IMG/VR virus record: IMGVR_UViG_3300008050_000148
Coordinates: 1 to 33,859 of that record
From: a virus
Reading direction: 5' to 3' (one strand)
Length of the DNA stretch: 33,859 nt
This document shows, piece by piece, positions 8,626 through 32,022 of this stretch. Position 1 is the stretch's first letter. Each line of letters opens with the position of its first letter. Made by a program: the position numbers and the translations under genes. The notes below the pieces were generated by a model that worked only from the letters and a program-made list of their open reading frames with translations, was not told the origin of the DNA and searched no databases.

Positions 8626-8627
8626 AA

Positions 8628-8879
8628 TCAATCATCCTCCTCGTCAAGGAAGACGAAATCGAGAGGGATGACGTCTTGCTTTGGATTTTCTTGTTTCTTT
8701 CTCTCTTCACTCTCAACTGTCTGAGCAGCGCTGGCTAATTCGGCGGCTTTGATGAACATGTCATAATCCATGTCAAATGCTTCTTGGAGCGATGTGCCAT
8801 AGTGCTTTGCTACCATGTAAGCCCACACATCCATTGATTCGACCATGCTTTTATCTTCGCCCTCTACTACTCCTCTCAT
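8628..8879 (-). CDS. Tail assembly chaperone, second-frame part (gpGT-like candidate)
   Basis: An 83-residue acidic protein just upstream of the tape measure, where the second tail assembly chaperone is usually found. It has a helical middle (VWAYMVAKHYGTSLQEAFDMDYDMFIKAAELA) and a charged C-terminus ending in DEEDD. The ATG at 8879 has no visible Shine-Dalgarno. The frame is open upstream to 8939, so it overlaps the end of the preceding gene. The frame relation is what a -1 ribosomal shift would need, so this may be expressed mainly as the C-terminal part of a roughly 208-residue fusion. The alternative is a separate, poorly initiated gene. The family call rests on position and size, not on a motif. 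Confidence 0.62.
   Translation of the reverse strand: MRGVVEGEDKSMVESMDVWAYMVAKHYGTSLQEAFDMDYDMFIKAAELASAAQTVESEERKKQENPKQDVIPLDFVFLDEEDD
8634..8641 (-). promoter_or_regulatory. Shine-Dalgarno site of the tape measure gene
   Basis: AGGAGGAT on the minus strand lies 8 nt before ATG 8625, within the last codons of the chaperone-like gene. It supports ATG 8625 over TTG 8631. Confidence 0.7.
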
Positions 8880-8939: not shown

Positions 8940-9253
8940 TCATTTAATGATGGTAATGCCATAAGTATTTTCTGTGCTATTTCCGCAGGTAACAATTTCA
9001 AATCATCAGGTGTTAAATCGGGCTCAGTGCGAGATATCAACCTCGTGAAAAGGAAATCAAAAAGCGAGGCCAAATCCACTTGGGGGGTTTCACCATTAAC
9101 ATCAAGGACATTGTCAAGCAAATATTGCAAATCAAGAAATGTTAAAGGCTTGACATAGACGACGAGTATTTCGTCATCACCAACGTCAATCTCTATTCTC
9201 TCTTCACTTTTCTTCGCCAATAAACTGTTCTTCTCCACTATTTTCCGACTCAC
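8903..9253 (-). CDS. Tail assembly chaperone (gpG-like candidate)
   Basis: A 116-residue protein with an N-terminal beta part (RIEIDVGDDEILVVYVKPLTFLDL) and a helical C-terminal half, the general shape of tail assembly chaperones that coat the tape measure during tube assembly. It starts with GTG at 9253, supported by AAGGTGA 5 nt upstream, even though this overlaps the preceding gene by 50 nt. Later TTG starts (for example 9220) have no better signal. The last 36 nt overlap the open frame of the next gene, where two G-runs could allow frameshifting. Function is inferred from place (after the tube protein, before the tape measure) and fold tendency. Confidence 0.65.
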   Translation of the reverse strand: MSRKIVEKNSLLAKKSEERIEIDVGDDEILVVYVKPLTFLDLQYLLDNVLDVNGETPQVDLASLFDFLFTRLISRTEPDLTPDDLKLLPAEIAQKILMALPSLNDMGDLLTSGFRN

Positions 9254-9638
9254 TTACTTCACCTTCCGGTTCTACTTCATTGGACACAGCCTCTTCCGAG
9301 GGGGCATCCGAGGCCTCAGTTGCAGCCTCATCAGAGATAGGTATCTCTTCCGAGGGGGCGTCGTTGGCCTGTAGCCGAGCAATTAACTCGACCTTTGTCC
9401 CTGTAGCATCTAAGCCACGCTCCTTACAGAGCGACCTCAAATCATTGTAGGTCATGGACTCGTAATCTGTGATGTTATCTGGGAATGGGTCTTCTGTTGG
9501 TTTGGCCGCTTCTGGGTCAAACACATCAACCTCTTGCTCCAAAACTGGAGGCTCTTCTTTTACCACAACAGGAGTGGCCTTGGGTGTAGGTGCCATTACT
9601 TTGGCAGTTGTTGGGTTTTTGTAAAGACGATTTGGCAT
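9204..9638 (-). CDS. Small acidic virion protein with SAP domain
   Basis: A 144-residue protein. Residues about 60-92 match a SAP motif (YESMTYNDLRSLCKERGL, then TGTKVELIARL), a helix-extension-helix fold that usually binds DNA and occurs in phage structural proteins. It is flanked by disordered Pro/Val/Glu-rich (20-58) and Glu/Ser/Ala-rich (93-144) segments with repeated DAPSEE. Start: ATG 9638, five nt after GAGGGAT. A TTG at 9650 overlapping the upstream stop is less likely. It sits between the tail tube gene and the chaperones, an unusual place for a DNA-binding motif. The role is unknown; SAP-like motifs are also used for protein contacts. Confidence 0.78.
   Translation of the reverse strand: MPNRLYKNPTTAKVMAPTPKATPVVVKEEPPVLEQEVDVFDPEAAKPTEDPFPDNITDYESMTYNDLRSLCKERGLDATGTKVELIARLQANDAPSEEIPISDEAATEASDAPSEEAVSNEVEPEGEVSESENSGEEQFIGEEK
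9259..9264 (-). promoter_or_regulatory. Shine-Dalgarno site deciding the GTG start at 9253
   Basis: AGGTGA on the minus strand lies 5 nt before GTG 9253. It supports this start despite a 50-nt overlap with the SAP-domain gene. Confidence 0.6.
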
Positions 9639-9646
9639 ATTATCCC

Positions 9647-16452: not shown

Positions 16453-16833
16453 TTACTCCGTATTGTCCTCAACAGGTGTTGGATTTAGATGTTCCTCCAC
16501 CAGTGAGAGTAATTTTGCCTTGGTTGTATAGGTCCTTGGGACTGAAATTTCTTTTTCAGACAACCATTCTCGAATGGCCGCACGGGTCCATTCACTATCA
16601 GGAATACCATCAGTATCTGAGGCGGGAGGGGCGGCTTCTTCGACCACTTCAACTGGCGCAGGAGGGGCATCTTTGACTTCTGCCCCCTCAATAAGCCAAC
16701 ATTCTGCACGAAGATGTACAGAGTTAGCCTCTACCCATTGTGCGGTGACTTCTCTCGGAACCCTCCGCAGCCATTCTCTACCATCAAAGGCATTACGAGA
16801 ATACTGTGGACCAAGATATGTCACAGTGGCCAT
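16453..16833 (-). CDS. Small virion protein with C-terminal SAP/HeH-like domain
   Basis: A 126-residue protein. Residues 1-50 form a compact domain (VTYLGPQYSRNAFDGREWLR). Residues 51-77 are an Ala/Pro/Glu/Val-rich linker. Residues 78-117 look like a helix-extension-helix domain of the SAP/HeH type (DSEWTRAAIREWLSEKEI, then TTKAKLLSLVEEHL). Such domains occur near capsid genes in several phages. Start: ATG 16833, four nt after GAGGTGG. It lies nine nt after the preceding gene. A role in contacting DNA or capsid subunits is possible. It is the second protein of this kind in the window; the other follows the tail tube gene. Confidence 0.7.
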   Translation of the reverse strand: MATVTYLGPQYSRNAFDGREWLRRVPREVTAQWVEANSVHLRAECWLIEGAEVKDAPPAPVEVVEEAAPPASDTDGIPDSEWTRAAIREWLSEKEISVPRTYTTKAKLLSLVEEHLNPTPVEDNTE

Positions 16834-17321: not shown

Positions 17322-18452
17322 TCACTGCAAGTCTCGAACGCTCCCCTGTGCCCCAAAGAAAGAGCACCAGATTTCGCCCATTGTTCGATAGAGACCTTCC
17401 TGACCAAGTCGGTTGATGCCGAATGGGTCACCAGTCTCAATACCGGACTCAAAGTACTGGGTTGGAATTGCTGTGCTGAACCAGAGATAATCTGTATCAA
17501 GATAGTAGATTCTACCGATTCCGTCACTTGTCATGTCCTTGGTTGGGATGATTGGGACACCATTGTAGGTAGCCACGATGAATCCGGCTTCGACACCGGG
17601 AACGCCCTGTACACCATTGTAGGATGGAACCACTCTCTTCTCTTCCATGAAGCGCTGCTGGCTCTGGAGGAGTTGTTGGATTCTCATCAGCGTGTCGTAT
17701 CCAGTCAGCATAACCTTAGGGTTGCCACCACGAGTCCAGAGTTGCTGGAAAAGATTGTCAAGGTGGTCAAGACTCAGAGTTCTGTTTGTGCTGGCTGAGT
17801 TTGCCTCATCTTCTGCGAAAGCCCACGTGTTTGCACTGCGGTCGATGCTGAAGATATCCTCATCGGCTGCGTTGTAGTGAGTGCCAGAGGTCATCGAGGT
17901 GTTTCCAGTTGTGATTCTGTCAAGGGACTCGAAATTGTTCCCAGCGACCGTGGTCACATCAGTCAGAAGCATCTTGTTCACCATCTCAGCGTGGTGCTTG
18001 CCCATTTCTTCCTTCATGACTGCTCGAATGTCACCCAGACCGTCGTCCTTGTCAGCGAGGAAGATGGCAGTCTCCGACATGTCGAAGGTGTGAGCCACCG
18101 TCTTTGGCTTGGCTGCAACATTCTGGAATGTTGGACGAACCGTGTCAGGAAGAGTTGCATTCTCTGCTACTCCACCGTGGACTGTTCCAGAGTTTGGCTT
18201 GGCTGTAATAACTCTCCAACCACTTCGGTCCCATGGCTTCTTCGGCAGAATGCTGAAGGCGTTGAATTCTTGGTTCAGTTGAGACCACACTTTGCGGCCA
18301 TAGATGGCTTGGTAAGTACCTGCAGTGGTCGACAGCATTGGGCTGTCAGCCTTCAACAGTTCGCTACCGGAGTATGAGTACCCCATTGCGTTACCTGCAC
18401 CATAGTAGTAGCGTTCCAAATCTGTGACTGTCCTTACGTAGTTTCGTGCCAT
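17322..18452 (-). CDS. HK97-fold major capsid protein
   Basis: A 376-residue protein with HK97-type features. The N-terminal arm is followed by a strand region (VWSQLNQEFNAFSILPKKPW). A long spine-helix-like segment comes next (DIRAVMKEEMGKHHAEMVNKML). The C-terminal part has PKVMLTGYDTLMRIQQLLQS and then GVPIIPTKDMTSDGIGRIYY, typical of the A-domain. Start: ATG 18452, favoured over TTG 18458 because AGGAGG lies 8 nt upstream, inside the end of the protease gene. It follows a protease/scaffold gene and precedes small head genes, the standard order. Codons are richer in G/C at third positions than in most neighbours, which fits strong expression. The portal-protease-capsid linkage makes the call firm. 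Confidence 0.9.
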   Translation of the reverse strand: MARNYVRTVTDLERYYYGAGNAMGYSYSGSELLKADSPMLSTTAGTYQAIYGRKVWSQLNQEFNAFSILPKKPWDRSGWRVITAKPNSGTVHGGVAENATLPDTVRPTFQNVAAKPKTVAHTFDMSETAIFLADKDDGLGDIRAVMKEEMGKHHAEMVNKMLLTDVTTVAGNNFESLDRITTGNTSMTSGTHYNAADEDIFSIDRSANTWAFAEDEANSASTNRTLSLDHLDNLFQQLWTRGGNPKVMLTGYDTLMRIQQLLQSQQRFMEEKRVVPSYNGVQGVPGVEAGFIVATYNGVPIIPTKDMTSDGIGRIYYLDTDYLWFSTAIPTQYFESGIETGDPFGINRLGQEGLYRTMGEIWCSFFGAQGSVRDLQ

Positions 18453-18454
18453 TC

Positions 18455-19849
18455 TCAATCCCTCCTGATAACTTGGTTAGCAAGGTCATGAACTTCACTC
18501 CATGACATTCCTGCTAATTCTGCGCTCTCAGGGATTGGTATGTGGGAAGCACTCTCTCCGCCAGACTTCTGGATGGTGGTGCTCTGGGTTGATGAAAGAT
18601 TATCAATTCTGTCAGAAAGACCAGAGATTGCCTTGGTGATGTCTGCAAGAGGTCCACGTGCATCAAAGTCTTGTCGAGCGGCCATTTCTTGTTCATGCCT
18701 CTGTTCTTTATTGAGTCTCTCAGCGAAGAAACCACCGAGGTTCTCTTTGAACTGCTGCTCAGTGGATGCTGCCCTGTAGACTTCGTAAGCCTTCTCGATG
18801 TCAGCGTCTGTAACCTCATTTGGGCTAAGGAAACCTTTCTTGGCCTGCATTGTATCACTTCCACCAAGTCCCATATTCTTGATAGCATTGGTTGAAGGCG
18901 AACCACTCTCTTGGGCCCGTCCTTTGACTTGTCCAGCGAAGTAGTCAGCGCCATCTATTGAATCTGGATTATCGAATCCACCGAGTTGTGCCTTCTCCAT
19001 TGAATCTGGGTCAGCGAAGTGTGCTCGGGCCTTACCCACATCATAATTTGCAGATTTAGCGACACCCTCAAGGAAGTTAAGATATTCTTCACTGATGAAC
19101 TCATCATCAGACTTCTTTGCGTCATCTTTGTCTTTCTTCTCGTCTTTCTTTTCATCTTTCTCCTCGTCAGCCGCCTCTTCTTTTGCTTCTTCAATGAAGG
19201 GAGGGGCTTTCTTTTCTACTTCGTCACTCTTTTCCATAGAATCGAGGCGAGTTTCCAGTCGATTGAGAACGTCAGATAGTTCGTCCAAGGCTGTCATATG
19301 CTCCCCCTTGCTAACGTCTTCCTTAATAATACGGAAGGTCGACTCTGGATTGATTCCTTTTTCACAAATTGTGACCTCATGGAGTTCCAGTTTGCTGATT
19401 TCACGATAATCTCCGTGCTTAGAATCAGATTTATTCATTCTTTTGAACGCTTGGCCACCGATACTAAATCCACGCAAATTTCCCTTTCTTATTTCTGAGG
19501 CAACCTCTCGTGCCTTTTCTATGTCATCTCGTAGTTGCACTACTACAAACATACCAACATCATCAACTTCCGACTTCCAAACCTTACCTTGACTATCTAT
19601 GTATTCAGGAACGACACTACCAACTTGTATATTGGAGTGAGCCAATTGCACATTACTATACTCAGGGGCGGCCATATATTTCTTGAAAGCATCACGCAAT
19701 GCTTCACGTGTAATAAGGTCACCCTGTTTATCGACTAACTCCACACTGGCGTAACCAGCAACCACAAGGTCATCGGATTTCAACAATTGAATATCTTGCA
19801 AGGGCACTCGCATGTCTAACATAATATCATATGTGCGCAAAACTCTCAT
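18455..19849 (-). CDS. Prohead maturation protease fused to a scaffold-like C-terminal domain
   Basis: A 464-residue protein. Residues 25-175 match an HK97/S78-type prohead protease: VVAGYASVELVDKQGDLIT at 29-47, the probable catalytic His71 in QLAHSN, Ser129 in LRGFSIGG, and KLELHEVTICEKGINPES at 153-170. The C-terminal 290 residues are mostly helical and very acidic/Lys-rich (a DEKKDEKKDKDD-like stretch), ending in Gln/Ser-rich coils, like a delta-domain scaffold that is digested after assembly. It starts with ATG 19849, overlapping the upstream stop as ATGA. In-frame ATGs at 19822 and 19813 are alternatives. It would clip capsid subunits and itself inside the procapsid, and may also process the internal proteins encoded nearby. 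Confidence 0.88.
   Translation of the reverse strand: MRVLRTYDIMLDMRVPLQDIQLLKSDDLVVAGYASVELVDKQGDLITREALRDAFKKYMAAPEYSNVQLAHSNIQVGSVVPEYIDSQGKVWKSEVDDVGMFVVVQLRDDIEKAREVASEIRKGNLRGFSIGGQAFKRMNKSDSKHGDYREISKLELHEVTICEKGINPESTFRIIKEDVSKGEHMTALDELSDVLNRLETRLDSMEKSDEVEKKAPPFIEEAKEEAADEEKDEKKDEKKDKDDAKKSDDEFISEEYLNFLEGVAKSANYDVGKARAHFADPDSMEKAQLGGFDNPDSIDGADYFAGQVKGRAQESGSPSTNAIKNMGLGGSDTMQAKKGFLSPNEVTDADIEKAYEVYRAASTEQQFKENLGGFFAERLNKEQRHEQEMAARQDFDARGPLADITKAISGLSDRIDNLSSTQSTTIQKSGGESASHIPIPESAELAGMSWSEVHDLANQVIRRD
18461..18466 (-). promoter_or_regulatory. Shine-Dalgarno site of the major capsid gene
   Basis: AGGAGG on the minus strand lies 8 nt before ATG 18452, inside the last codons of the protease gene. 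It supports ATG 18452 over TTG 18458. Confidence 0.75.
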
Positions 19850-22800
19850 CTATTTAATACGGAAGCATTCTTCTCTTTCTTGCGTCTTTCATATTTTCTT
19901 TCTTCTTCTGCTTCTTTTTCTTCTGTATATTCACTATTAGAAGAATCCCAATCAGGCATGGTGGCCCCACCATCAATTGTAGTAGGACCACGGGGGGCTG
20001 CCTCTCCTGTCCCATGATTGATTGCTAAACTCTCAATACCAATAGTCGCCATACGCTCTTTAGCAATACGGTCCATCAATTTAGCAGCCAATGTGGCTGC
20101 TTTGATAGTCAAATCTTCCTCTGTTGGTTTATGGAAAGTGCCCGGCACTATTTTGGGCTCAAGAAATGGTTCATGGGGCTCAGGGTTATCGACTTTCTTA
20201 GGGGGTTCAGCCAATTTCTTACGGTCCTTTTCAGACATCTTAACTGCTATCTTCTTACTTTTGAGCAAAGCGGCAGCAACAGGCTCCCAATCATCACGTA
20301 TTGCTTCACATAGACGAATAACGTAATCACTATCGTTTTGGTCAGGAAGAGATACTTGTGGCTCTTGTAATTCAACTCCTAATTCATTAGGATACATCTT
20401 GTATAACACATCATTCTCTAAATGAGGTAATTCAATTTTCAAGAAATTCTCCTCAAGTGAAACTTTCGTAGGAGACCACACTGGTACAGATTTTGCTAAA
20501 ATGCCCAGTGTCTCAATACTCGCAGGGCCATCACCTTCACCGTGAATCTTTCCTCCCCGCACAGTAAACAAAGAGCGCCCCTTCTGCTTCTTTTCCTTTA
20601 CAGAAGCAACAGTGACTTTGACACTGTGTCCTATTTCATAACGCTGAGGTGAACGAAAAACCGTCCCTACATCCATGTAAGTATGCTTCTTAGTTTTCAC
20701 TGCTCGGGGGCCTAACCCTTCTGTGTCAAATATAGGGCCCGCCCCCAGTCTATAGGTATAGGTACCAGTTCCTGAACGGTCAAGAATGATGAGGTCAACT
20801 TTCTTTCCTTTCTGTAAAATAACCCACTTAGGATGTCTTAATTCTCCACGCATGTAGGTAGATTGGGCATCTCTTAACAGAATAGGTTGCTCTAATTCAG
20901 CAATAGCGTCCTCAAGACCGTCATCGTCAGTTGTGCGCAGAGTTGAAGGGGAAGGGGGTTGGAAATGCTCATGTGGCTCAAAGGTAGCCCTCAACAATCG
21001 GACTCGCTCTGTTGCCTTCATTTCATGAATATCATCATCTTCAACTTTGAGTACATCTATCACATAGAAGCGCTTCTTATGTAGCATTCCATCCAGAACG
21101 AAATCTTTCTCACTTGATTTCTTTGCATCCTTCTGTACCTGCTTAGGGACCTCTATTTTTTCATTAAGGGTGGTCTGGGCAGTGAAATTATCTCCTTTGC
21201 GTGTCAACATAATACGCTCACCCTTTGGCCAAGAAGTGACAACCCACTCTCCTGTGAACCCACGAAGAGAATCTAAATCATCAACATTGAAGATACGGTG
21301 CATAGGAAGAATGGGGTCAGGTCGAGGTGTTTTGAAGAAAACATTGTCTAATAGACCAAGAGTGTCGATTTCTTGAATTGAAGTTGCAAATAATCCTCCA
21401 CCATCTACACCAATGCCCACATCTCTCTGTGAATGCCCCGCAGAAGTAGGCCGTAGGCCTTGGGGGGAGGATATGTGCTCATCCCCAGTCAACATACCAT
21501 TTAATTCAGGAAATACATCGAATAAATACTTATGAGGAACTCTCATCAATGGTGTTTCTCGCACAGGGAGGTTTTTAATTGTAATATCTCCATTTTCCGC
21601 TAATCCTAATGTATAATCAGGCAACATGCCCCAACCCCAACTTAAGCGAGGGCCATTGAGTAAATCGTGCACTGAATGAGACCCCGGCTTCGATAAATCT
21701 ATAGGGGCTTCTCCCCAATCATTACCTGAATATTTTTGCTTCTTTTCCTTTGTGTGGTCAACTATGTCTGAAGGAGTGTATAATAAAACACTATCAAACA
21801 TTTTTGCAGCGTCTCTGAGTCTGTTTTTTACTTTAGTGTCTTGAGTCCCTGTTGTTTTACCTTCAATTACCCGACCACCTACCTTTTTCTGTGTACGACC
21901 ATCTTCTACAGAAGGACGATTTGGTGCATTTACCAATGTCAAATTGTTTCTTTGTAACTCATCAGGAGAAAAAATTAGTTTCAACTTTTTTGCAAGTTGT
22001 CTAAAGAAAAGAGGAGTAGGTTCTTTTCTGGTCTCTTTATTACGCATAACATCTTTAGATGTCAAAAAGTCCCCAATATGCTCTACATCTTTTGTGTGTT
22101 CACTAATATCATCTTTCACAAACCCATCCAATAAACCACTCATAAGTGCTTGACTTAATGTCATAGCCTGCACTGGTTCCTTTTTATTCATCTTCGCTTG
22201 TAGTTTTTGTACAATCTCTTGATGATGTTTATCTAAAGGATTGAAACCAAGAGTTTCAAACAACTCTCCCTTATCCATATTTTGAGAAATCACTCCTTGG
22301 TGTTCATTCAAGCCTTGTGCCAAATGAGACATAGGGTGTTCAATTATATCTTTATTAGATACTTCATCAGTTTCTTTTGGGACCATAGTGTGGCCCATTT
22401 GACCATGTACTTCATGGGGCGTGCTGAATAATGATAATTGGCCATTTCTGAATAATTCAAGTGCATTTGATAACAATGCTTGTGGGTCATTTTTATGGCG
22501 GGAGAAGAACTCAGGTTGTTGTTGCTCTATTTTTTCTCTAAGTGTTTTTGTTACATTCGTGATGGCATTCATATGACTATTAATGACTTTATCAAACTCT
22601 CTGTCATAGCGGCTCATGCCCCTTTCTTCTGACAAATCACCAGTTACCATTCCTCTTACATCAACTTCTCGTTGTTGCATAATATGGTGTAAACGGGGGT
22701 CAGATACTGCGTATTCTTCTGGGGGGACTTTATGAAATGACATAACTTTTGCATTTTTACCATAACGATTCTTGTATGGTCTTCCTCTTTGGTCTTTAAT

Positions 22801-25422
22801 TGATTGAAGAAAATCCCCAGAAGATAATATTTTTTCATGTTCCCCTCTATCGTGGTCTCTTTCCCATTTTGGAGACTGTCCGGGTGGTATTATCTGACGC
22901 AACAAAGTACGTAAAATATAACTTTGAATATGTTTATCTGACAAATGTGCAAAATCAGTTGGCTCTATAATTGGATTTGACATTCCACGAATTTTTCTCT
23001 CTCTGTTTTCTTTTTCCTCTACAGAAAGATTCTCAGGAATATGAAAAAGGTCAGGGTCAAAAAAACCAGATTGTTCTTGTATCTTTCGTTCTCTACCATA
23101 TCTGGATGGAAGACCTAAACCAGTAGTCAATATTTTACCTCGACCATCAAACCATGTTGTTGGTGAACTTGGTATTTTTGACTTACTGTGATATGGTCTA
23201 CCGAATTTTGGGTCATCTAACCATGCCTGAACAGCCGCACCATGAGGTGTTGAAATGTTAGCCCTTTGATTATGATTTGTTGTTGTGGAGAGTTCCTTTA
23301 ATTGATGGTTTTCATCAACAAAGGAATGGGATGCATTACCCATGGAAAGAATTTCATGTGGTTCAAGTTTACCGTGGACTAAACGCCGAGAGCCCAATAA
23401 TAATTTTCCTTCTTTATCGACCAATCCTTGCTTTCCTCCAATCATATCAGAATATTTGGGATTAGTAACTTCCTTACCCACACCAGCAGGGGCCCCCTTA
23501 GGTCCATACTCTATATTTTTGTGACCATGAACTGTTGGGTGCAAATTTGCTAACAAACCCGCCATATCATCTCGAAAACCAATAACAGGGTTCTCTATGT
23601 TTACTGATTGTAACCATCTATTCATTTGCTCTTCTGTTCTTACTTTTTCACCCACGGCAGCCTGTTGGCCCACTAAATCTGGTTGGGTTGTCTCTATTTT
23701 TATTGAAGACCTTTTAGGTCCCCTTTTTGTTTCATCTTCTGGATGAGCATCATGAAAACCATTTCCCAAAAATGAAAATGATTGATGTGTTGGCCCCCCA
23801 CCAACCCTTTCATGTTCCTCTAAAGGTGCATAAACTGTTGTTAAAAAATCATGTAACATGTCAATGTATGTTTCCTCCTCTCTCGCTATGCCCCCAGTTT
23901 GATGAAATGGCTCCATCCAATGTGAAGCAAAGGTACGAGAAAGGTCACCATGGTCGTGATAATAATCAAGGTCACCCTCTTGTGAAATAAACTCAGGGTT
24001 AGGACCAAACATATTACGATATGCCAAATAGGCATTACGAATGTCTTTTTGATGAGCAGCATATCCTTGCATATTCTTTGCCGTGTTTTTGAATTTTTCA
24101 ATAGTTTCAGGTTCCAAAACCTTTTTCCCTGTCCACTTTTCACCATATAAAGGGTGTTCTCCTTTGGGATATAAATTTCCATTTTCATCTAAACCCGCTA
24201 ACATATTAAATAAATCAGGATGCATTTGTCCCTCTTGGTTATCACCCCAATCACTATAGCCTTGTTTATAGCCCGGTAAAGGAGCATCATCATCATCTAC
24301 CATTTTACGATGATTGTTCCATAATCGTTCATAAACAGAATCACCCTCCTCTCCCTTCTTCCCAATTGTGTTTACCCCATGGGCGGCAACAGTGAAATAT
24401 CGTAAATTAACGTCTCCTCCTTTGTGTGATTTTTCATGTATAGGGGCCACATTAGGCCCAGAATTCATATCTGCACCAACCATCCAATTCTTTTCACCAG
24501 CAGTGCGTGAAATGAAATTGCGCTTTAGGCGTGCAGCAGCCATATGAGGTATTGCTTCTTCTCTATCAGAACCGTGTTTATACAAATGTCCAACAATTTC
24601 TGTTCTCCGTTCTGGGGGCATAAATTCGAGACCAAGATTATATCCTAACCAACCAAGTTTGCGTGAATGTAATCCATTTTCATCTTTATAATGTTCACCA
24701 CCAGTCCATTGCTCAGCACGTTGATTAAAATGCTCTTCACGTAATTTGTGTTTCATTTCATCATCTAATTCTGCCTCACCGATGTTTTGATTTTTCAACC
24801 ATCTCAAAAAATCAGTGTCATAATAATCATGAGCAGAGTGGTCGTCTTGTAAACTCCCCAAGAAGTTGTTATCAAAAGCCGGTGTATGCTTCCATCTGTT
24901 TTGATGTGATAATTCCATCTTGGCTTCTTTTTCTGCCAAAGATTCAGTATGGGGGTCTGGTCTCAAATAATATCCTCTTAGAACATCAACAAAACGATTA
25001 CCATGTAATAAGGGATGAATAGATTCAGAAAAGGGACTATGGTCCCTAAAGGGCCCTTCTGGGGTATTGCGACCCTGTATCAAATGAGTGGGGTCCATCT
25101 GTGGCCAAGCACCATGAATCAATCCTTCTTCTCCCTCTTCTTGCACCCCTTGTCCATAATCAATAGGTATTGCGGAATTAATGCGGCCACTAAATGGACC
25201 AAGAGGCACATCAGTGACATCTTTTAACAAAACCATATCACTGAAAACCCGTGCCATTACATCATCACTCTTAGTGATGTGAACAGCATCATGTCTCTGT
25301 AAATTACGCAGAGCAAAACGATAAGCAGCCGCAGAATCTACAGTATCTATGCCATCGAAAAGAGATTTGAGCACATCTGAGCGGGCTCTCAGATAGATTT
25401 CAACAGGTCCCTCGATTGACAC
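19846..25422 (-). CDS. 1858-residue virion-cluster protein with degenerate DNA-ligase-like region
   Basis: The first about 1300 residues match nothing I know. They are rich in His, Asp, Arg, Gly and Pro, hydrophilic, and without membrane segments. Residues about 1375-1640 resemble an ATP-dependent DNA ligase core. WPKGERIML (1398-1406) sits where the adenylation motif K-x-DG-x-R is expected. FVLDG (1441-1445) and FYVIDVL (1452-1458) match motif III/IIIa, and ERVRLL follows at 1472. ILLRD (1514-1518) and KWVILQKGKK (1532-1541) sit where motifs IV and V belong, then an OB-fold-like segment. The catalytic Lys position is Trp1398 and the motif Asp is Lys1400, so adenylation should be lost. The C-terminus is Lys/Glu-rich. 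Start: GTG 25422 just after GAGGT. It sits between portal-side genes and the protease. A packaged or internal head protein is possible. Confidence 0.75.
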   Translation of the reverse strand: MSIEGPVEIYLRARSDVLKSLFDGIDTVDSAAAYRFALRNLQRHDAVHITKSDDVMARVFSDMVLLKDVTDVPLGPFSGRINSAIPIDYGQGVQEEGEEGLIHGAWPQMDPTHLIQGRNTPEGPFRDHSPFSESIHPLLHGNRFVDVLRGYYLRPDPHTESLAEKEAKMELSHQNRWKHTPAFDNNFLGSLQDDHSAHDYYDTDFLRWLKNQNIGEAELDDEMKHKLREEHFNQRAEQWTGGEHYKDENGLHSRKLGWLGYNLGLEFMPPERRTEIVGHLYKHGSDREEAIPHMAAARLKRNFISRTAGEKNWMVGADMNSGPNVAPIHEKSHKGGDVNLRYFTVAAHGVNTIGKKGEEGDSVYERLWNNHRKMVDDDDAPLPGYKQGYSDWGDNQEGQMHPDLFNMLAGLDENGNLYPKGEHPLYGEKWTGKKVLEPETIEKFKNTAKNMQGYAAHQKDIRNAYLAYRNMFGPNPEFISQEGDLDYYHDHGDLSRTFASHWMEPFHQTGGIAREEETYIDMLHDFLTTVYAPLEEHERVGGGPTHQSFSFLGNGFHDAHPEDETKRGPKRSSIKIETTQPDLVGQQAAVGEKVRTEEQMNRWLQSVNIENPVIGFRDDMAGLLANLHPTVHGHKNIEYGPKGAPAGVGKEVTNPKYSDMIGGKQGLVDKEGKLLLGSRRLVHGKLEPHEILSMGNASHSFVDENHQLKELSTTTNHNQRANISTPHGAAVQAWLDDPKFGRPYHSKSKIPSSPTTWFDGRGKILTTGLGLPSRYGRERKIQEQSGFFDPDLFHIPENLSVEEKENRERKIRGMSNPIIEPTDFAHLSDKHIQSYILRTLLRQIIPPGQSPKWERDHDRGEHEKILSSGDFLQSIKDQRGRPYKNRYGKNAKVMSFHKVPPEEYAVSDPRLHHIMQQREVDVRGMVTGDLSEERGMSRYDREFDKVINSHMNAITNVTKTLREKIEQQQPEFFSRHKNDPQALLSNALELFRNGQLSLFSTPHEVHGQMGHTMVPKETDEVSNKDIIEHPMSHLAQGLNEHQGVISQNMDKGELFETLGFNPLDKHHQEIVQKLQAKMNKKEPVQAMTLSQALMSGLLDGFVKDDISEHTKDVEHIGDFLTSKDVMRNKETRKEPTPLFFRQLAKKLKLIFSPDELQRNNLTLVNAPNRPSVEDGRTQKKVGGRVIEGKTTGTQDTKVKNRLRDAAKMFDSVLLYTPSDIVDHTKEKKQKYSGNDWGEAPIDLSKPGSHSVHDLLNGPRLSWGWGMLPDYTLGLAENGDITIKNLPVRETPLMRVPHKYLFDVFPELNGMLTGDEHISSPQGLRPTSAGHSQRDVGIGVDGGGLFATSIQEIDTLGLLDNVFFKTPRPDPILPMHRIFNVDDLDSLRGFTGEWVVTSWPKGERIMLTRKGDNFTAQTTLNEKIEVPKQVQKDAKKSSEKDFVLDGMLHKKRFYVIDVLKVEDDDIHEMKATERVRLLRATFEPHEHFQPPSPSTLRTTDDDGLEDAIAELEQPILLRDAQSTYMRGELRHPKWVILQKGKKVDLIILDRSGTGTYTYRLGAGPIFDTEGLGPRAVKTKKHTYMDVGTVFRSPQRYEIGHSVKVTVASVKEKKQKGRSLFTVRGGKIHGEGDGPASIETLGILAKSVPVWSPTKVSLEENFLKIELPHLENDVLYKMYPNELGVELQEPQVSLPDQNDSDYVIRLCEAIRDDWEPVAAALLKSKKIAVKMSEKDRKKLAEPPKKVDNPEPHEPFLEPKIVPGTFHKPTEEDLTIKAATLAAKLMDRIAKERMATIGIESLAINHGTGEAAPRGPTTIDGGATMPDWDSSNSEYTEEKEAEEERKYERRKKEKNASVLNR

Positions 25423-25428
25423 ATGACC

Positions 25429-25818
25429 TCACCGAGAGCCACCGTCAACAAGTCTGTCTGCACCTGTCTTAGTGTGAGGATTCAGGTGTATAGAATCGAG
25501 ATTAACCGCTTCTTTCTTTGCTCCTTTATTGGTAACGTCTTCAGACTCAATTGTGTTACCATTAGTCCAATAAGGGGCGGTATGAACTTGCCCACCAGTT
25601 TCTGTTACAAAATGAGATGGGCCAACAGTTGACCCTTCTTTATGGCCAGTATATTCTGGTTGGGATTTCTCCATATAGCCTTCTTTGTCACAATTGCACT
25701 CTTTATCACATTTGGAGCATTTCTTATCTTTAGCCTTCTCAATGCGCTCATTCAAACGCAATGCCTTGAGCATCAAATCTTCTACTTCTGGTGATATTTC
25801 ACTGTACCTTGGTCTCAT
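25429..25818 (-). CDS. Small unknown protein with Cys cluster
   Basis: A 129-residue protein. Residues 1-32 are helical (SPEVEDLMLKALRLNERIEK), followed by Cys at 34, 37, 41 and 43 (CSKCDKECNCDKE), a possible metal site. The rest is polar and low in hydrophobic residues, with several His (HFVTETGGQVHTAPYWTNGN). Start: ATG 25818 overlapping the previous stop (ATGA). It ends six nt before the giant ligase-like gene. No family is recognised. Composition of the C-terminal half resembles the giant gene that follows, so it may be an assembly partner; that is speculation. Confidence 0.6.
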   Translation of the reverse strand: MRPRYSEISPEVEDLMLKALRLNERIEKAKDKKCSKCDKECNCDKEGYMEKSQPEYTGHKEGSTVGPSHFVTETGGQVHTAPYWTNGNTIESEDVTNKGAKKEAVNLDSIHLNPHTKTGADRLVDGGSR

Positions 25819-26186
25819 GCGTCTAACCCCGCTATTGATGGAACTGATTGGTCTGTTAGACCGAGTGATTTAGCATTGTCTGCCATGGCGTGAATATCGT
25901 CCCAACTCATTGCATGGAACTCTTCATTATTGTCTGGTACAGACAACTCATCTGTTCCCTTGAGTATAGAATCATCATCTCCACGGAAAGCATCAACAAT
26001 CATACCCTCAGCAAAAGGAGTGCTTGTGGAAACAAATCCCGCTTTACGCAAAAGAGCGGCTGGGTCCATAAGAATCTGTTTCAAAATGGTGTTTTCAGAC
26101 TGTAACATCTGAAGTTGTCCATCCATAGACTCCATCTTTGTGATAAGGGTCTCCATAAGACGGCTTGCACCATCTTCTTCACTCAT
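25815..26186 (-). CDS. Small coiled-coil head-cluster protein
   Basis: A 123-residue acidic protein. Residues about 8-42 form a clear coiled coil (LMETLITKMESMDGQLQMLQ, then SENTILKQIL). The C-terminal part is Asp/Ser/Ala-rich (MSWDDIHAMADNAKSLGLTD). A similar short phrase, MSWSEVHDLANQ, appears at the C-terminus of the protease/scaffold protein, so the two may share a terminal interaction motif. Start: ATG 26186, four nt after the previous stop. Candidate roles are scaffold or portal-associated assembly factor; none is proven. Confidence 0.62.
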   Translation of the reverse strand: MSEEDGASRLMETLITKMESMDGQLQMLQSENTILKQILMDPAALLRKAGFVSTSTPFAEGMIVDAFRGDDDSILKGTDELSVPDNNEEFHAMSWDDIHAMADNAKSLGLTDQSVPSIAGLDA

Positions 26187-26190
26187 ATAA

Positions 26191-26529
26191 TCACAAATCC
26201 CGTTGACTCAATTGCTTCATTGGGGAGCGCACAGTAGTTGCACGCACATATCCCGGTAGAACATTTGGATTGCTCTGATAACTACGCTCACTTTGCTTGA
26301 ATTTGCGCACTGGTACGCCACCAGCATATACATCATTAATGCCTATTGATTTCTCAGCCTTTGTAACTGCACTTTCAATATCGCTTGCTAAATATTGAGC
26401 AAACTTCTGTATTTCATTAATGTGATGTCGAGCGTTGCCTACATCACCTGAATCTATAGCCTTGTGAAAGGATTCTACTTCGGCCCCAAGTTTGCGAGCC
26501 ATGGGGTCCATCTTCGATAATTCGGTCAT
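26191..26529 (-). CDS. Small helical protein after the portal
   Basis: A 112-residue protein with a helical core (DPMARKLGAEVESFHKAIDS, then ARHHINEIQKFAQYLASDIE) and a basic, less ordered C-terminus. No family is recognised. Start: ATG 26529, chosen because GGAGTGAT lies 4 nt upstream. An in-frame GTG at 26577 would overlap the portal by 11 nt and lacks such a site. The position next to the portal suggests a head-assembly role, which the sequence does not prove. Confidence 0.6.
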   Translation of the reverse strand: MTELSKMDPMARKLGAEVESFHKAIDSGDVGNARHHINEIQKFAQYLASDIESAVTKAEKSIGINDVYAGGVPVRKFKQSERSYQSNPNVLPGYVRATTVRSPMKQLSQRDL

Positions 26530-26533
26530 ATCA

Positions 26534-26541
26534 ATCACTCC
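26534..26541 (-). promoter_or_regulatory. Shine-Dalgarno-like site deciding the ATG start at 26529
   Basis: GGAGTGAT on the minus strand lies 4 nt before ATG 26529, one base short of GGAGGTGAT. No comparable site precedes the alternative GTG at 26577. Confidence 0.55.
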
Positions 26542-26566
26542 AAAGGGCTCCCATGTTTCAATGTTC

Positions 26567-28282
26567 TTATGCCCCACGAGGTCGCCTTGCGTCCATCAGT
26601 GCCTTAGAATTTCGTTGCGCTGGTCCGGGTTGCGGTCCCCTTTGTTGAACACTTGAAACTGGCGAACCACTCACACCACTGCGGCTTTGTGGAGAAGCAG
26701 GTCCACGATTACGCAATCCTGCTCCTTCTCCTCCGGGCTGGGCACCGGGCATTGTCATGCTGCCATGTGGCATACCACCCTGCATTGGCATACCACCTTG
26801 CATTGGCATACCACCACCCTGCATTGGCATACCACCACCCTGCATTGGCATACCACCGCCCATACCGGGCTGTTGTCCTTCTTCTGGACTAGTGTAAACA
26901 AATCTCAAATCTTCTTCACCTTCTGATTTGAGTTCAGGTTTGAAACCAAGCATCATCATTCGCTGAGCGATGTTAACTTCCATCTCATCTCTACGCAGAC
27001 GTGTAATTTCATCTTCTTCTTCACTTGGATATAGAGCAAGTTTCCAATCTATAACACCCATCTCAGCGAGTATTTTAGGAAACAGAGTATCTGTGTACAC
27101 CTTTTGCCCAAATTCAACTGCTCGATTTGTGACCACCATTTGCATGCCCTCATTATTCAAACCACCAGATTTACCAGTGTCCATCATGAAAACATTGGAC
27201 ACACCATAGAAAGCAGCCATGCGCATACGAATTTCATCTCGCACTGCAATATACTGCATCTCCTCTAATGTATCCATAAATTTGACCCAATTGACCCCAC
27301 CTCTTCCACTGGAAGACTCAATGCCCACCTTAGGAACATAGTGGGGGTCTCTCTCCATCTTTTCATCTACTGCTTTCCAGAAGGATTTCATAGATTCCAA
27401 ATTGTCAGTTGTAACACTGATAATGCCTTTTGGAGTGCGTCGCTTCTGATAAGCAGTGTAAATGTAATTATCCATAGCAGTCAATGTCATTGCTTGACGC
27501 CATAGGGTGTTTACAGGAGCCTTACCATACAATTTACTTGGATTGTATTTGCTAACATGAAGCACCTCTCCTTTGATGAAATATTGTGTTTTTCCACTAC
27601 CCGCAGTGTTGACAAAGTGTACATCAAACATCTCATCCTCATCATAATCACTTGCTCCGGGGTAGATGGGTTTCACACGGTCTTTAAGACGAATTCGATA
27701 TTTGCCCCCTCTTACGCCTCTTTTATCTGCCACAATGCGCATGAAGATAGGGTCACCACGAACTACCTCTTTGACACGAGACATAATTGGTTGACCCTTT
27801 TCATCCAAATAATACTCCTTCACCAGAATCAAAAATGCATCATCGACCACATCAAGGTCATATTCAACTTCTCTGAGAACATCAAGAAAAGATTGTCCCA
27901 TTGAGTTGTCTTGTTGTAATAACCATTGAGGATAATTCAATTGTTCATGGTCAGGAGCAACAACTCCACCTCCACACTTATTGCACGCTTCTAAATCATG
28001 TTGAAACTCTTCATGGCATTGGTCACATTTTTTGACAAATTTTGGTAGCCAATAATAACCACGACGAAACATTTCTTGATTAATAGTAGTAAGAACTGTG
28101 CGCAAAATCAAATTCTCACTGGCCACTGCATACAAAGCAGGGATGGTAATCCCCTGTGCTAAAACTGGCTCTTGTATGCCAGTTGTCCACAAAGGCATGA
28201 TGGGTTCAGGAGTAGATTTACGCCGAAAGGGGCGAGTAAGGGCTGATATAACCCGTCTGACTGGTCCTTGCCTATCGCTCAT
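26567..28282 (-). CDS. Portal protein with inserted zinc ribbon
   Basis: A 571-residue portal. Portal-like segments include a helical stem region (LTAMDNYIYTAYQKRRTPKG), QYIAVRDEIRMRMAAFYGVS and TNRAVEFGQKVYTDTLFPKI, which is typical of the phage portal family. Residues 86-103 carry two Cys pairs (CDQCHEEF, then CNKCGG), a zinc ribbon uncommon in portals. The C-terminus (about 470-571) is disordered and contains tandem MPMQGG(G) repeats and Pro/Gly/Ser/Gln-rich sequence. Start: ATG 28282, overlapping the previous stop as ATGA. It forms the dodecameric ring through which DNA is packaged by the terminase encoded upstream. Family call is firm from the pattern and linkage; the zinc site is seen in sequence only. 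Confidence 0.88.
   Translation of the reverse strand: MSDRQGPVRRVISALTRPFRRKSTPEPIMPLWTTGIQEPVLAQGITIPALYAVASENLILRTVLTTINQEMFRRGYYWLPKFVKKCDQCHEEFQHDLEACNKCGGGVVAPDHEQLNYPQWLLQQDNSMGQSFLDVLREVEYDLDVVDDAFLILVKEYYLDEKGQPIMSRVKEVVRGDPIFMRIVADKRGVRGGKYRIRLKDRVKPIYPGASDYDEDEMFDVHFVNTAGSGKTQYFIKGEVLHVSKYNPSKLYGKAPVNTLWRQAMTLTAMDNYIYTAYQKRRTPKGIISVTTDNLESMKSFWKAVDEKMERDPHYVPKVGIESSSGRGGVNWVKFMDTLEEMQYIAVRDEIRMRMAAFYGVSNVFMMDTGKSGGLNNEGMQMVVTNRAVEFGQKVYTDTLFPKILAEMGVIDWKLALYPSEEEDEITRLRRDEMEVNIAQRMMMLGFKPELKSEGEEDLRFVYTSPEEGQQPGMGGGMPMQGGGMPMQGGGMPMQGGMPMQGGMPHGSMTMPGAQPGGEGAGLRNRGPASPQSRSGVSGSPVSSVQQRGPQPGPAQRNSKALMDARRPRGA
26771..26863 (-). repeat. Tandem 18/21-nt repeats encoding MPMQGG(G)
   Basis: Four units on the plus strand beginning CATACCACC and ending GCATTGG (26771, 26789, 26807, 26828; lengths 18, 18, 21 and 21 nt), plus a partial fifth. 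They lie in the disordered C-terminal tail of the portal. The two 21-nt units are identical, which suggests recent slippage or unequal exchange. Confidence 0.9.
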
Positions 28283-29610
28283 AGTTCATCCCGCCACTTC
28301 GCTACTGTATCAATGTTGACACCCCAATCAGTCAACATTTTCTGACTTTTTGACTCGTTATCTGACCAATTCTCATACTGAACCAATCGCTTGAGATTTT
28401 GTTTTCTCAAAGGGTCACTTTCATCAATGAAAGCAAGCACTGCCTTGGCTTGCATACCCTTTAGACGCAAATGGGGCTGTATGCCTACCAATAGTTTACG
28501 CATGTCATCTTTAGAGTAAAATTGTAGACGATGTTGACTCCTTTGACCATCTTTGTACACTTTCTGGTCAAGTTGTAGAACACCACATCCCAATGTTTTG
28601 TGTAACGCTTCACAATGTGCCCTACCCCGGTCACCCGTGGCTATGAACCCCGCTCTGGGCTCTCCTCTACCAGTAATTGAAATATAACCATCAGCATCAA
28701 GAAAACCAGCGGCATATGGCCAAGCCTCATCTTCTTTGAGAACTAATTCCCCCTTCTCTTTGAGAATATACTGGCCCTTACGGGCCCCTTTCATGACACC
28801 ATATTCATCCCCATACATTTTGAACAATAAGCCCAATCGCCGTGTTGTCAACATTCGTTTGAGATTACCAGATGACTTATCCAATATATTATCCAAAATA
28901 GTCGCAGCGTCCATTGCTCCCTTATCTCTTAATTCATCCATAGCAAGGGACATACATTCTTGTTCACTTTTATTCAACATATCACGAGGATTGAGAGCGC
29001 TTGTCCACGATTTCTTAGCACTTGTGCGCTCATCCATGGCCCATACCCATTTCTTTTGTTCGTCTTCACCCCAACCCCCTTCATGTTCTTCTAAGGTCTT
29101 GAGTAATGAGTCTGCCCGCTCCCAACGCCCACAAGCCCTCAATAGCACATCTTTACGCTCTATGCCCCGCAATCTCAAATTCTTTAACATCTTATCACTC
29201 AATCCCATATTGCGTATTGTGATTTGATGTTCTAATGCCCACCCTAATGATTTGAGAGTGGCCTCTACTTCCTCTTTTTTCAATTTACGAACACTACGTA
29301 TCACAATATCAATATCTTCTTTCATGTCTTTGTGTTGTCTACGAGCCTTACGAAGAGACCTCACAACTTCATTGGCTGAACGCCCCATATGTAATTCAAA
29401 CCATCCCTCACCTTCATGACCAAATGGTATGGGGGTTTCATAATCCCCAACACCTAACATTTCTTTGACTGATTTTGCCACCACATCAGGATATTTTGCA
29501 TAAAGTGGATGTCTAAGTAACTCCCCACACACTTCTGTCATCTCTTTGGAAATTGATTCAAAACGAGGAACATCCTCCATCTCATTCAATAAAGAAGATG
29601 CCCACACCAC
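28279..29610 (-). CDS. LAGLIDADG homing-endonuclease-type protein between terminase and portal
   Basis: A protein of about 443 residues. Near residues 296-395 it has a single LAGLIDADG-type domain: WPYAAGFLDADGYISI, with the acidic motif residue in AGFLDADG, then GFIATGDRGRAHCEALHKTL and LQFYSKDDMRKLL. A single motif predicts a homodimeric DNA nuclease. The first 290 residues are charged and helical and are not recognised; they may be DNA-binding or of another origin. The start is uncertain. The frame is open to ATG 29682, which would overlap the terminase by 71 nt. I chose GTG 29610, one base after the terminase stop; ATG 29577 is also possible. The stop overlaps the portal start. It is a free-standing gene, not an intein, since terminase and portal motifs are intact. 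Confidence 0.78.
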   Translation of the reverse strand: MVWASSLLNEMEDVPRFESISKEMTEVCGELLRHPLYAKYPDVVAKSVKEMLGVGDYETPIPFGHEGEGWFELHMGRSANEVVRSLRKARRQHKDMKEDIDIVIRSVRKLKKEEVEATLKSLGWALEHQITIRNMGLSDKMLKNLRLRGIERKDVLLRACGRWERADSLLKTLEEHEGGWGEDEQKKWVWAMDERTSAKKSWTSALNPRDMLNKSEQECMSLAMDELRDKGAMDAATILDNILDKSSGNLKRMLTTRRLGLLFKMYGDEYGVMKGARKGQYILKEKGELVLKEDEAWPYAAGFLDADGYISITGRGEPRAGFIATGDRGRAHCEALHKTLGCGVLQLDQKVYKDGQRSQHRLQFYSKDDMRKLLVGIQPHLRLKGMQAKAVLAFIDESDPLRKQNLKRLVQYENWSDNESKSQKMLTDWGVNIDTVAKWRDEL

Positions 29611-29611
29611 A

Positions 29612-31066
29612 TCAAACACCAAACCAAGACGGCTTTTTGGGATTACCCATGACCCAATCATCGAAACCCGGTAAATAATCATCTAACATCACAATACTGC
29701 CCTTGAACTCTTTTGTAGCCCAATTTGCTAACGCTAAGCCCATAGCAAGGTCATCGTGAGTACCCACACTCTCAAGTCGACCCCATTTTGTCATTCCAAA
29801 ACGATTGAGTTCGGTTTCTAACTTGTGCGTGAATCTCTTACTCTCTTCATCTCCATATGGAGTACGAATTTTACCTTGCTCAAACGCAAGAAGGAGGCTC
29901 ATAAACAAACTCTCTTTCTTTTGTCGAGTTGTCATGAATGTACGAATAGGAATGTCAGTATCCCTCATCTCCATTGCAAACATGCGCTGGAAGTTGTTAC
30001 CTTCTAATTCAATCAAATCCGCATGAAAACGATTGTTGAGCAACATCATCATACGACGCTGTGCTTGAGAATTCAATCCCTTTTCATGAACAGCATGAAT
30101 GACTTGTTTAATCTCATCATCAGGCATTCTCATGACAACCATGGCAGTATAATCAGCGTTTTTATCAGAAGCAATAGCAGGGTCCCAACCGACGAAATGT
30201 TGACCAAAAGGAGTGCCATCATCATTAGTTTCTGCCCTCTGTAATAGGCTTAACTCAGGGTCTCTTGCTGCCTCAAGTATGTCCATCGGGAACATACTGG
30301 CAACATCATGAATCGGCTCACACAGATACTCACGTGCAAACTGAATAGCAGGCATCGACATGCGCCGCTGGTCTAGCGCATCTAAGTCCCAACGCTCGGG
30401 CCAAAGGGCCTCACCATTTTCATTAATGGCGGGAAAAGTCTCGACCTTGAATGCATCCTTGCGCTCCAATTCAGAATACAGGTCACTATAACTAAATGGA
30501 GTCCCTACCATCATAAGACGCCCTGTGTGGTGCAGAACAGGGAGAAGAACTGAGTAAAACCAATCAGCAGTACGAGCCAACTCATTCACTGTGCTACCCC
30601 ATAGAATATCATCACATACAACCACATCAGGGTGGAAACCACGAGTTGCTCCACCAACCGATTTACCCATGATACGACTCTTGTTGGTGAAATCCAGATA
30701 AGATTTAGCCCAAGGGCGACCTTCTGGCTTGAGATGAGAAAGAACTGGATGAGTGACAATTTGTGTGCGAATGAATCTCATGTGCTCCAATGTCTGCTCC
30801 AATGAGTGAGAGAAAACCATGATATGGGTGCTAGGGGTGAATGCAGCCAGCCACAGTGCATATGACATGAACAGAGTGGATTTACCGTGGTCACGACTCG
30901 CTTTGACCACGTAATAGCGGTCCTTCTGCAGATTCTCTACCCATTGCTCATGATGATGACTGTAATGAAACCCCAAAACATCAGTAAAGAAGTAATGGAA
31001 TGATTTTGCACACATCTCACGGTCCACTTCAAGGACCATTTGTTGCATGTCGACTGCTTCAGTCAT
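29612..31066 (-). CDS. terL: Terminase large subunit
   Basis: A 484-residue protein with both terminase activities. Residue numbers here count from the TTG at 31069, so subtract one for the chosen start. The ATPase has a Walker A-like loop at 57-65 (ASRDHGKST), a Walker B at 149-155 (VVVCDDI) and the coupling motif VGTPF at 188-192. The RNase H-type nuclease has Asp296 in FVGWDPAIASDKNADYT, the acidic stretch ADLIELEGNNF near 350-360, and HDD at 438-440. It pumps DNA through the portal and cuts concatemers. Start: ATG 31066, overlapping the upstream stop as TGATG. A perfect AGGAGGT lies 5 nt upstream and rules against the in-frame TTG at 31069. No small terminase subunit is recognised next to it. 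Motifs are complete, so the gene appears functional. Confidence 0.95.
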   Translation of the reverse strand: MTEAVDMQQMVLEVDREMCAKSFHYFFTDVLGFHYSHHHEQWVENLQKDRYYVVKASRDHGKSTLFMSYALWLAAFTPSTHIMVFSHSLEQTLEHMRFIRTQIVTHPVLSHLKPEGRPWAKSYLDFTNKSRIMGKSVGGATRGFHPDVVVCDDILWGSTVNELARTADWFYSVLLPVLHHTGRLMMVGTPFSYSDLYSELERKDAFKVETFPAINENGEALWPERWDLDALDQRRMSMPAIQFAREYLCEPIHDVASMFPMDILEAARDPELSLLQRAETNDDGTPFGQHFVGWDPAIASDKNADYTAMVVMRMPDDEIKQVIHAVHEKGLNSQAQRRMMMLLNNRFHADLIELEGNNFQRMFAMEMRDTDIPIRTFMTTRQKKESLFMSLLLAFEQGKIRTPYGDEESKRFTHKLETELNRFGMTKWGRLESVGTHDDLAMGLALANWATKEFKGSIVMLDDYLPGFDDWVMGNPKKPSWFGV

Positions 31067-32022
31067 CAATTACCTCCTGTAAATTTACCTGTCGTCAGGT
31101 CGAATTGGTTGTTGAGAAACTCTTGTTGTGCTGCATTATTTTTCTTCTGCTGCTCCTGCTGCTCCTGCTGAGCCTGCTGCTGCTGTATTAGTAGAGCCTG
31201 TTTTTGGGCCTCTTCAGCAGCCTTTTCTTGTGGATTTGGTTGTCCCATCGCTGGTACTGGGGGACCAGATGGTGAGGCCGGTGGTGGTGACAGGGCAGGA
31301 GTAGTGGTGGGAGTAGTGGTGGGAGCAGTGGTGGGAGCAGTGGTGGGAGCAGTGGTGGGAGCAGTGGTGGGAGCAGTGGTGGGAGTAGGAGTTTGTCCCC
31401 CCACTTGACCTCCACCAACATTTACTGGTCCCGGCTCCTGTGCCCCTTCTTCTGCTAAGGTTTTCGCTTCTTCATCAAGTTCTGTTTGTTGTTGTGCTTG
31501 TTGTGCCGCCATTGCTTGCTCTGTTTCATAATCTTGACGAGCACCATACATATCTTGTGTGCGTTGTGAAAATCTATCTAATGGGCTCAAGGCCGCACCA
31601 GCCTGAAGATAACCAGATTGGGCAGCACCTAAAGTGCCCATTAAACTACCACTTTGCTGAGCATCAGCGGCTGATAAGGCTGCGGCACCTAATTGTCCTA
31701 ATAATTTACCACCACTCAATGCAGCACCTAAAGCATTTCTTCCTCGACCCGGTAAAGGTGGGGGAGTTTGTTGAACTGGGTCGTCTCCACGGAGAGGATA
31801 TTTTTTTTGTGCTGCTTGTTGTGCTTGTTGCTCCATAGTTGCCAAATGTTCACTTTTTGGTTTTCTTAATCGTGAAAACAAACCGGGGCCCTTTTTTCTT
31901 TTTTCACCACCCCCCATAGGTAAACTGAATTGAAGTCCGGGGGCTGCTTGTTGGACAACATTAAACCCACCACCATCTTGTTGCTTGAGCATGCCCCATG
32001 CATAATCTATTGGCTCACTCAT
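31066..32022 (-). CDS. Low-complexity Gln/Ala-rich protein upstream of the terminase
   Basis: A 318-residue protein. Residues about 75-140 are Ala/Gly-rich and mildly hydrophobic (LGAALSGGKLLGQLGAAALS), a pattern seen in some internal or pilot virion proteins. A Gln-rich coiled segment follows (YETEQAMAAQQAQQQ), then seven PTT(A/T) repeats, a Pro-rich stretch and a poly-Gln C-terminal helix. Start: ATG 32022, overlapping the previous stop as ATGA. A longer start at 32037 would overlap by 19 nt. The family is not recognised. A small terminase subunit would sit here in many phages, but no helix-turn-helix is evident. Confidence 0.6.
   Translation of the reverse strand: MSEPIDYAWGMLKQQDGGGFNVVQQAAPGLQFSLPMGGGEKRKKGPGLFSRLRKPKSEHLATMEQQAQQAAQKKYPLRGDDPVQQTPPPLPGRGRNALGAALSGGKLLGQLGAAALSAADAQQSGSLMGTLGAAQSGYLQAGAALSPLDRFSQRTQDMYGARQDYETEQAMAAQQAQQQTELDEEAKTLAEEGAQEPGPVNVGGGQVGGQTPTPTTAPTTAPTTAPTTAPTTAPTTTPTTTPALSPPPASPSGPPVPAMGQPNPQEKAAEEAQKQALLIQQQQAQQEQQEQQKKNNAAQQEFLNNQFDLTTGKFTGGN
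31072..31078 (-). promoter_or_regulatory. Shine-Dalgarno site of the large terminase gene
   Basis: The minus strand reads AGGAGGT five nt before ATG 31066. It is the strongest site in the window and fixes the terminase start. Confidence 0.8.
31301..31384 (-). repeat. Seven tandem 12-nt repeats encoding PTT(A/T)
   Basis: Plus-strand units G(T/C)AGTGGTGGGA occur seven times in register from 31301, with five GCA and two GTA variants. They encode a Pro-Thr-Thr-Ala/Thr linker in the protein upstream of the terminase. This is a perfect in-frame minisatellite likely to vary in length among relatives. Confidence 0.93.

Follow-up and report, generated by a model that had tools for sequence, protein, structure and literature searches.

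The DNA ligase homologue of magroviruses is part of a giant head-cluster protein and lacks the catalytic residues of ligases

An "ATP-dependent DNA ligase" has been counted among the replication proteins of magroviruses (PMC10768690, PMC12999244, PMC10160649), and these viruses are said to replicate with little help from the host partly through this enzyme. In the group A contig_156409, the gene labelled as ligase adjoins the prohead protease gene (PMC7318539). Ligases can also have a catalysis-independent role at DNA ends, as described for yeast Dnl4 (PMC3694833), and phages carry polyvalent, or injected, head proteins with a range of enzymatic domains, which enter the cell along with the DNA (PMC5512222). 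Whereas the published magrovirus ligase is reported as part of the replisome, the gene described here lies in the head cluster, and its product lacks the catalytic residues. Like the polyvalent proteins, this product is very large and is encoded beside portal-terminase genes; unlike them, it has as its sole recognised domain a ligase-like module that appears to be dead, and its packaging is hypothetical.

The window (i.e., the whole stretch of DNA analysed, 33,859 nucleotides) is a 33.9-kb virus record whose minus strand bears a tailed-virus head-tail module, including tail genes. The head genes are as follows:

29612-31069, minus strand: TerL
28279-29682, minus strand: endonuclease-like ORF (467 aa) between TerL and portal
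26567-28282, minus strand: portal protein
25429-26577, minus strand: three small conserved ORFs (128, 123 and 129 aa) from portal to giant protein, in the same order in relatives
19846-25422, minus strand: giant protein, 1858 aa, GTG start at 25422
18455-19849, minus strand: prohead (S78) protease
17322-18458, minus strand: major capsid protein, assigned on the grounds of its conservation, its position and a weak resemblance to an annotated HK97-like MCP

The 1858-residue ORF from which an earlier note on this DNA had started is present at 19846-25422. The portal protein is ~30% identical to those of the haloarchaeal Druskaviridae (HCTV-1, HVTV-1), and a search with the capsid protein found 389 IMG/VR relatives, many of them on contigs of marine origin as long as 100 kb. 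On the strength of these capsid relatives, of the PolB encoded by longer relatives and of the published gene pair of a ligase adjoining a prohead protease, the window virus is a magrovirus, one of the abundant marine viruses of the archaeal Poseidoniales (Marine Group II).

Several other genes of the record deserve mention. The ORF at 28279-29682 has a C-terminal GFLDADG motif and matches the endonuclease-like phrog_5046 (E 2.9e-8); it possibly contains a homing-endonuclease-derived domain. A 148-aa protein in the tail-gene region (9204-9650, minus strand) carries a SAP DNA-binding domain (PF02037, E 1.6e-12), and a 126-aa protein near the capsid gene (16453-16833, minus strand) has C-terminal helices with weak HeH/LEM- and Ish1-like (SAP-type) similarity (E 0.04-0.06). 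Three internal repeats of ~45 residues (e.g., IPLIGALVTFWNAFNNPAVKVALKDKF) are found in a 450-aa protein (7279-8631, minus strand), possibly a short tape measure.

The position of the giant-protein gene is the same across magroviruses. In 169/169 loci (some of which overlap on the same contig), the prohead protease gene follows directly, the same small ORFs lie upstream in 124/124 loci away from contig edges, with the portal beyond them in the loci listed, and the gene is present in 72/72 magrovirus loci in which the capsid gene was found and at least 2 kb of upstream sequence was available. The earlier note had placed the gene between portal-side genes and the protease, away from replication genes; this is borne out, PolB being far away in the long records checked. 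The reading frame is open in all relatives, and its stop overlaps the protease start in a 4-nt ATGA, which suggests translational coupling of the two proteins. No cellular or proviral copies of the giant protein were found in GTDB contigs, where a capsid probe likewise found none, and the GenBank phage collection, from which records very near the window may have been left out, yielded no relatives either. The large proteins that halovirus HCTV-1 encodes at the same map position show no homology to the giant protein.

The giant protein can be divided into the following regions:

23743-25032, minus strand: ordered, mostly helical N-terminal region, residues ~131-560, pLDDT mostly 80-96 (AlphaFold)
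22633-23742, minus strand: variable, mostly low-confidence linker, residues ~561-930
21493-22605, minus strand: second ordered region, residues ~940-1310 (AlphaFold)
20803-21309, minus strand: pseudo-ligase nucleotidyltransferase (NTase) core, residues ~1372-1540 (Pfam, AF2, Foldseek/VIA-align)
20488-20802, minus strand: OB-fold region, residues ~1541-1645 (VIA-align, alignment of relatives)
19933-20022, minus strand: conserved C-terminal tail, residues 1801-1830

Taken alone, the window protein matches the Pfam family DNA_ligase_A_M (PF01068) marginally (E 0.083 for the full length, E 0.0042 for the domain). Among 41 aligned relatives, however, PF01068 matches all 41 (best E 8.2e-8) and NCBIfam dnl1 matches 32 (best E 1.1e-8), and a search of the PDB with the relatives' profile has a Thermococcus DNA ligase as its best match (E 9.5e-5) and human LIG3 next, with snurportin chains also turning up. 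In a control in which five true ligases (four plasmid, one phage) were placed among shuffled sequences, a plain profile search gave weak scores, the best true ligase lying barely above the best shuffled copy; the sequence evidence by itself is therefore modest, and the case for a ligase is carried by structure and curated profiles. An AlphaFold model of residues 1350-1735 has a mean pLDDT of 78.5, with most of the NTase core at 85-95. Its first Foldseek match is the Pyrococcus furiosus DNA ligase (2cfm; E 6e-14), and the same ligase is the first VIA-align match (Z 20.8, 269 residues, rmsd 3.8 Å), model residues 16-321 being aligned with residues 217-561 of the chain, covering both NTase and OB. 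Chance similarity is ruled out by the 41/41 Pfam matches together with the predicted fold, and we conclude that the NTase and OB region, residues ~1370-1645, is homologous to ATP-dependent DNA ligases. A similarity first noticed by eye is thus upheld by the two profile families and by a predicted structure that has both ligase folds rather than lacking them.

Within this region, the ligase motifs correspond to the following segments:

21214-21237, minus strand: motif I equivalent TSWPKGER, residues 1396-1403 (hhalign)
21229-21231, minus strand: codon of W1398, in place of the adenylated Lys
21085-21102, minus strand: motif III equivalent FVLDGM, residues 1441-1446, the Glu of DGE missing
21049-21069, minus strand: motif IIIa equivalent FYVIDVL, residues 1452-1458
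20869-20889, minus strand: motif IV equivalent QPILLRD, residues 1512-1518, with Arg1517 for the catalytic Lys
20824-20862, minus strand: family signature SxYMxGExxHPKW, residues 1521-1533
20812-20826, minus strand: motif V equivalent WVILQ, residues 1533-1537, the first catalytic Lys replaced by I/L/M/V

The register was obtained with hhalign from an alignment of the 41 relatives with four true ligases (three haloarchaeal, one actinobacterial). TSWPKGER lies ungapped over EYKYDGMR, with W1398 at the nucleophile Lys, K1400 at the motif Asp and T1396 at the preceding Glu, and HMMER places the protein in the identical register on the Thermococcus ligase 4eq5, which rules out a misaligned motif I. 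The motifs quoted in the earlier note stand in the order it claimed (SWPKGERIML 1397-1406, FVLDG 1441-1445, FYVIDVL 1452-1458, ILLRD 1514-1518, KWVILQKGKK 1532-1541), and its assignment of Trp1398 to the adenylated Lys is exact by both programs.

Residues were then counted in 136 distinct relatives, 134-136 of which are covered at each column. The nucleophile column holds no Lys in any of 134 sequences (M31 W28 Y23 F14 H14 L12 Q8 I4, with 2 gaps), its loss being universal. At the motif I Asp, the Lys1400 pointed out previously is correct for the window but is not a family trait: the column is mostly Glu (69) or Asp (52), and Lys occurs in just 3 sequences, the window's small clade. The motif III Glu is Met1446 in the window, as read earlier from DGM in place of DGE, and I/V/T/M/L/A, never Glu, across all 135 covering sequences. 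At the motif IV Lys, 132/135 sequences have Arg and 3/135 have Lys; the motif IV Glu (Q1512 in the window) is retained in 41/135. All 136/136 sequences carry L/M/V/I at the first motif V Lys, and the second (Gln1537 in the window) is Lys in 18 relatives. No conserved KxDG exists elsewhere in the ligase-like region across the relatives, and no intact K-x-DG that might have displaced the proposed motif I came to light. Judged by these residues, the module is catalytically dead. Invariant positions are the motif I Arg1403 (134/134), the motif III Asp1444 (135/135) and G, E, H, P, K and W of the family signature (136/136).

What the module shares with archaeal/eukaryotic-type ligases (2cfm, 4eq5; PF01068) is thus the NTase and OB folds, the motif order, the motif I DGxR (D/E in most relatives), the motif III Asp, an FD-type motif IIIa and the SxY...G...KW stretch. 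Unlike ligases, the giant protein is without the nucleophile Lys, the Glu of motif III and the first Lys of motif V, has Arg for the motif IV Lys, loses the OB in one clade, and fuses the module to ~1340 residues without recognised domains, among head genes. It is conceivable that the protein is a still-active nucleotidyltransferase with a relocated lysine, given that Lys1532 is invariant and position 1475 is Lys in 131/135; we hold this to be very improbable, as the Lys of motif IV, the first Lys of motif V and the Glu of motif III have gone too, and Lys1532 adjoins motif V, a place at which a Lys is present in the Thermococcus ligase as well, so that it is not a new nucleophile.

Snurportin-1 illustrates another use of this fold. 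Its m3G-cap-binding domain has, like the module, the NTase fold of the capping-enzyme/ligase superfamily, and this guanylyltransferase-like fold binds the m3G cap non-catalytically, i.e., members of the superfamily can be put to use purely as binders. By analogy, the old pocket of the module might still bind a nucleotide or a nucleic-acid 5' end without catalysis. Pfam SPN1_m3Gcap_bd matches 13/41 members (best E 7.9e-6), in line with the snurportin chains in the PDB search, and the nucleophile position is almost always aromatic or hydrophobic. The pocket residue varies, however (W/M/Y/F/H/L/Q/I), ligase models score better, the Pfam one matching all 41 members, snurportin-1 is a eukaryotic import adaptor with unrelated ligand and context, and archaeal mRNA is not known to have an m3G cap; we regard such a binder as improbable.

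When the window is compared with two relatives, dN/dS is 0.041 for the NTase and 0.037 for the OB region, whereas residues 61-1345 show 0.24-0.39 and the region of the C-terminal tail ~0.09; this contrast is a rough one, as dS approaches saturation in the variable parts. The ligase-like module is the most constrained part of the giant protein, and at the level of the family it and the C-terminal tail are the best conserved blocks. All tested catalytic residues are lost, as expected of a decaying, functionless ligase remnant, but this pattern of selection, with a dN/dS of ~0.04, a frame open in every relative and a gene found at 72/72 loci, essentially refutes decay. A module that has lost its catalytic residues and is yet the most tightly conserved probably has a non-enzymatic job.

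The OB region is present in 91/136 relatives and missing from one monophyletic clade of 45 (FastTree support 0.998), which implies that the protein can do without encircling duplex DNA in the manner of a real ligase. In this clade (e.g., L035, L087, L100 and L110), the OB loss is clean and the NTase remnant is kept. The NTase region has a negative net charge in most members (median -7), similar to true haloarchaeal ligases (-4 to -12). Negative charge and OB loss in one clade make a serious rival of the reading in which contact with DNA has been lost and the NTase fold is a protein-protein scaffold for the portal, terminase, protease or capsid protein. The loss of motif V along with the OB throughout that clade, the fixed position beside the protease and the invariant SxYMxGExxHPKW, which is family-specific beyond the ligase SxY/G/W residues, are also in its favour; the retention of Arg1403 and Asp1444 suggests, to the contrary, that the old nucleotide/DNA cleft still matters in part, and on balance we find a pure scaffold unlikely.

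Outside the module, the giant protein is far more diverged among close relatives than the adjacent head genes are. A model of residues 121-1320 (AlphaFold, 56 sequences, pTM 0.71), searched as one piece, gave no convincing fold match in the PDB, BFVD or a VIA second look. The N-terminal helical DNA-binding domain of ligases was likewise sought, and found neither by Pfam nor as a fold match to the 121-1320 model searched whole. The C-terminal tail (19933-20022) is short and strongly conserved around RGPTTIDGGATMPDWD; it is possibly a docking motif.

In 25 magrovirus records of 63-109 kb, PF01068 matches are confined to the giant-protein ORF (in record G017, the ORF is present but below the PF01068 threshold). 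Neither a second ligase with TIGR00574 nor an NAD-dependent ligase with PF01653 was found in 10 records, nor an RNA ligase (PF09414) in 17, although these long records may still be fragments; PolB is encoded in all 17 long records checked, so the replication module is largely present in them. The published ligase of group A contig_156409 is almost certainly the giant-protein gene, and we infer that the published magrovirus ligase label refers to the pseudo-ligase. Ligase homology in magroviruses was already known; what is shown here are the missing catalytic residues and the head-gene setting, and no account in the literature found notes the catalytic death. The giant protein might also serve replication or repair and simply have its gene in the head operon, for instance as a decoy recruiting the host ligase or sliding clamp. 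This would fit with its being the sole DNA_ligase_A_M homologue of PolB-encoding viruses and with published accounts that place the ligase with the replisome (PMC10768690, PMC12999244); it is quite improbable, given that the gene invariably stands between those of the portal and the protease and, in the long records checked, is remote from PolB.

The explanation that we favour, tentatively and as something short of probable, is that the giant protein is a core head-cluster protein whose C-terminal third carries a former archaeal-type ligase, no longer able to adenylate itself and kept as a non-catalytic, putative DNA-binding module. The protein would be made with the portal, protease and capsid protein in a late head operon, its NTase/OB module would bind, without sealing, either duplex DNA (at nicks or ends) or the packaging machinery, and its N-terminal two thirds and conserved C-terminal tail would tie it to the prohead or portal. 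Late head expression and DNA binding by the module are what we infer from the gene order and the fold. Nicked or end-bearing DNA is the favoured ligand, given the fold, the retained motif I Arg and motif III Asp, and the activity of dead ligases at ends. More speculatively, the protein may be packaged inside the virion and then ejected with the genome, which is plausible by analogy with the polyvalent head proteins of phages (PMC5512222). Counting against the favoured explanation are the negative net charge of the NTase, the loss of the OB in 45/136 relatives, the failure to recognise an upstream ligase DNA-binding domain and the lack of homology to HCTV-1. A bolder version, which we think doubtful, is that the magrovirus order has turned its only recognisable ligase into a non-catalytic DNA clamp that is housed in the capsid and enters the cell with the genome, nicks being sealed by the host.

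These results overturn a standard annotation: in 25 long records, the sole ligase homologue is without catalytic residues and lies among head genes. The published idea that magroviruses supply a DNA ligase of their own may be founded on a pseudo-ligase, and the prediction is that magroviruses need a host ligase. If the clamp reading were true, they would be viruses without the ligase credited to them, dependent on the host for nick sealing. In either case, they offer a testable case of a DNA-ligase pseudoenzyme that viruses keep under strong selection for a non-enzymatic job.
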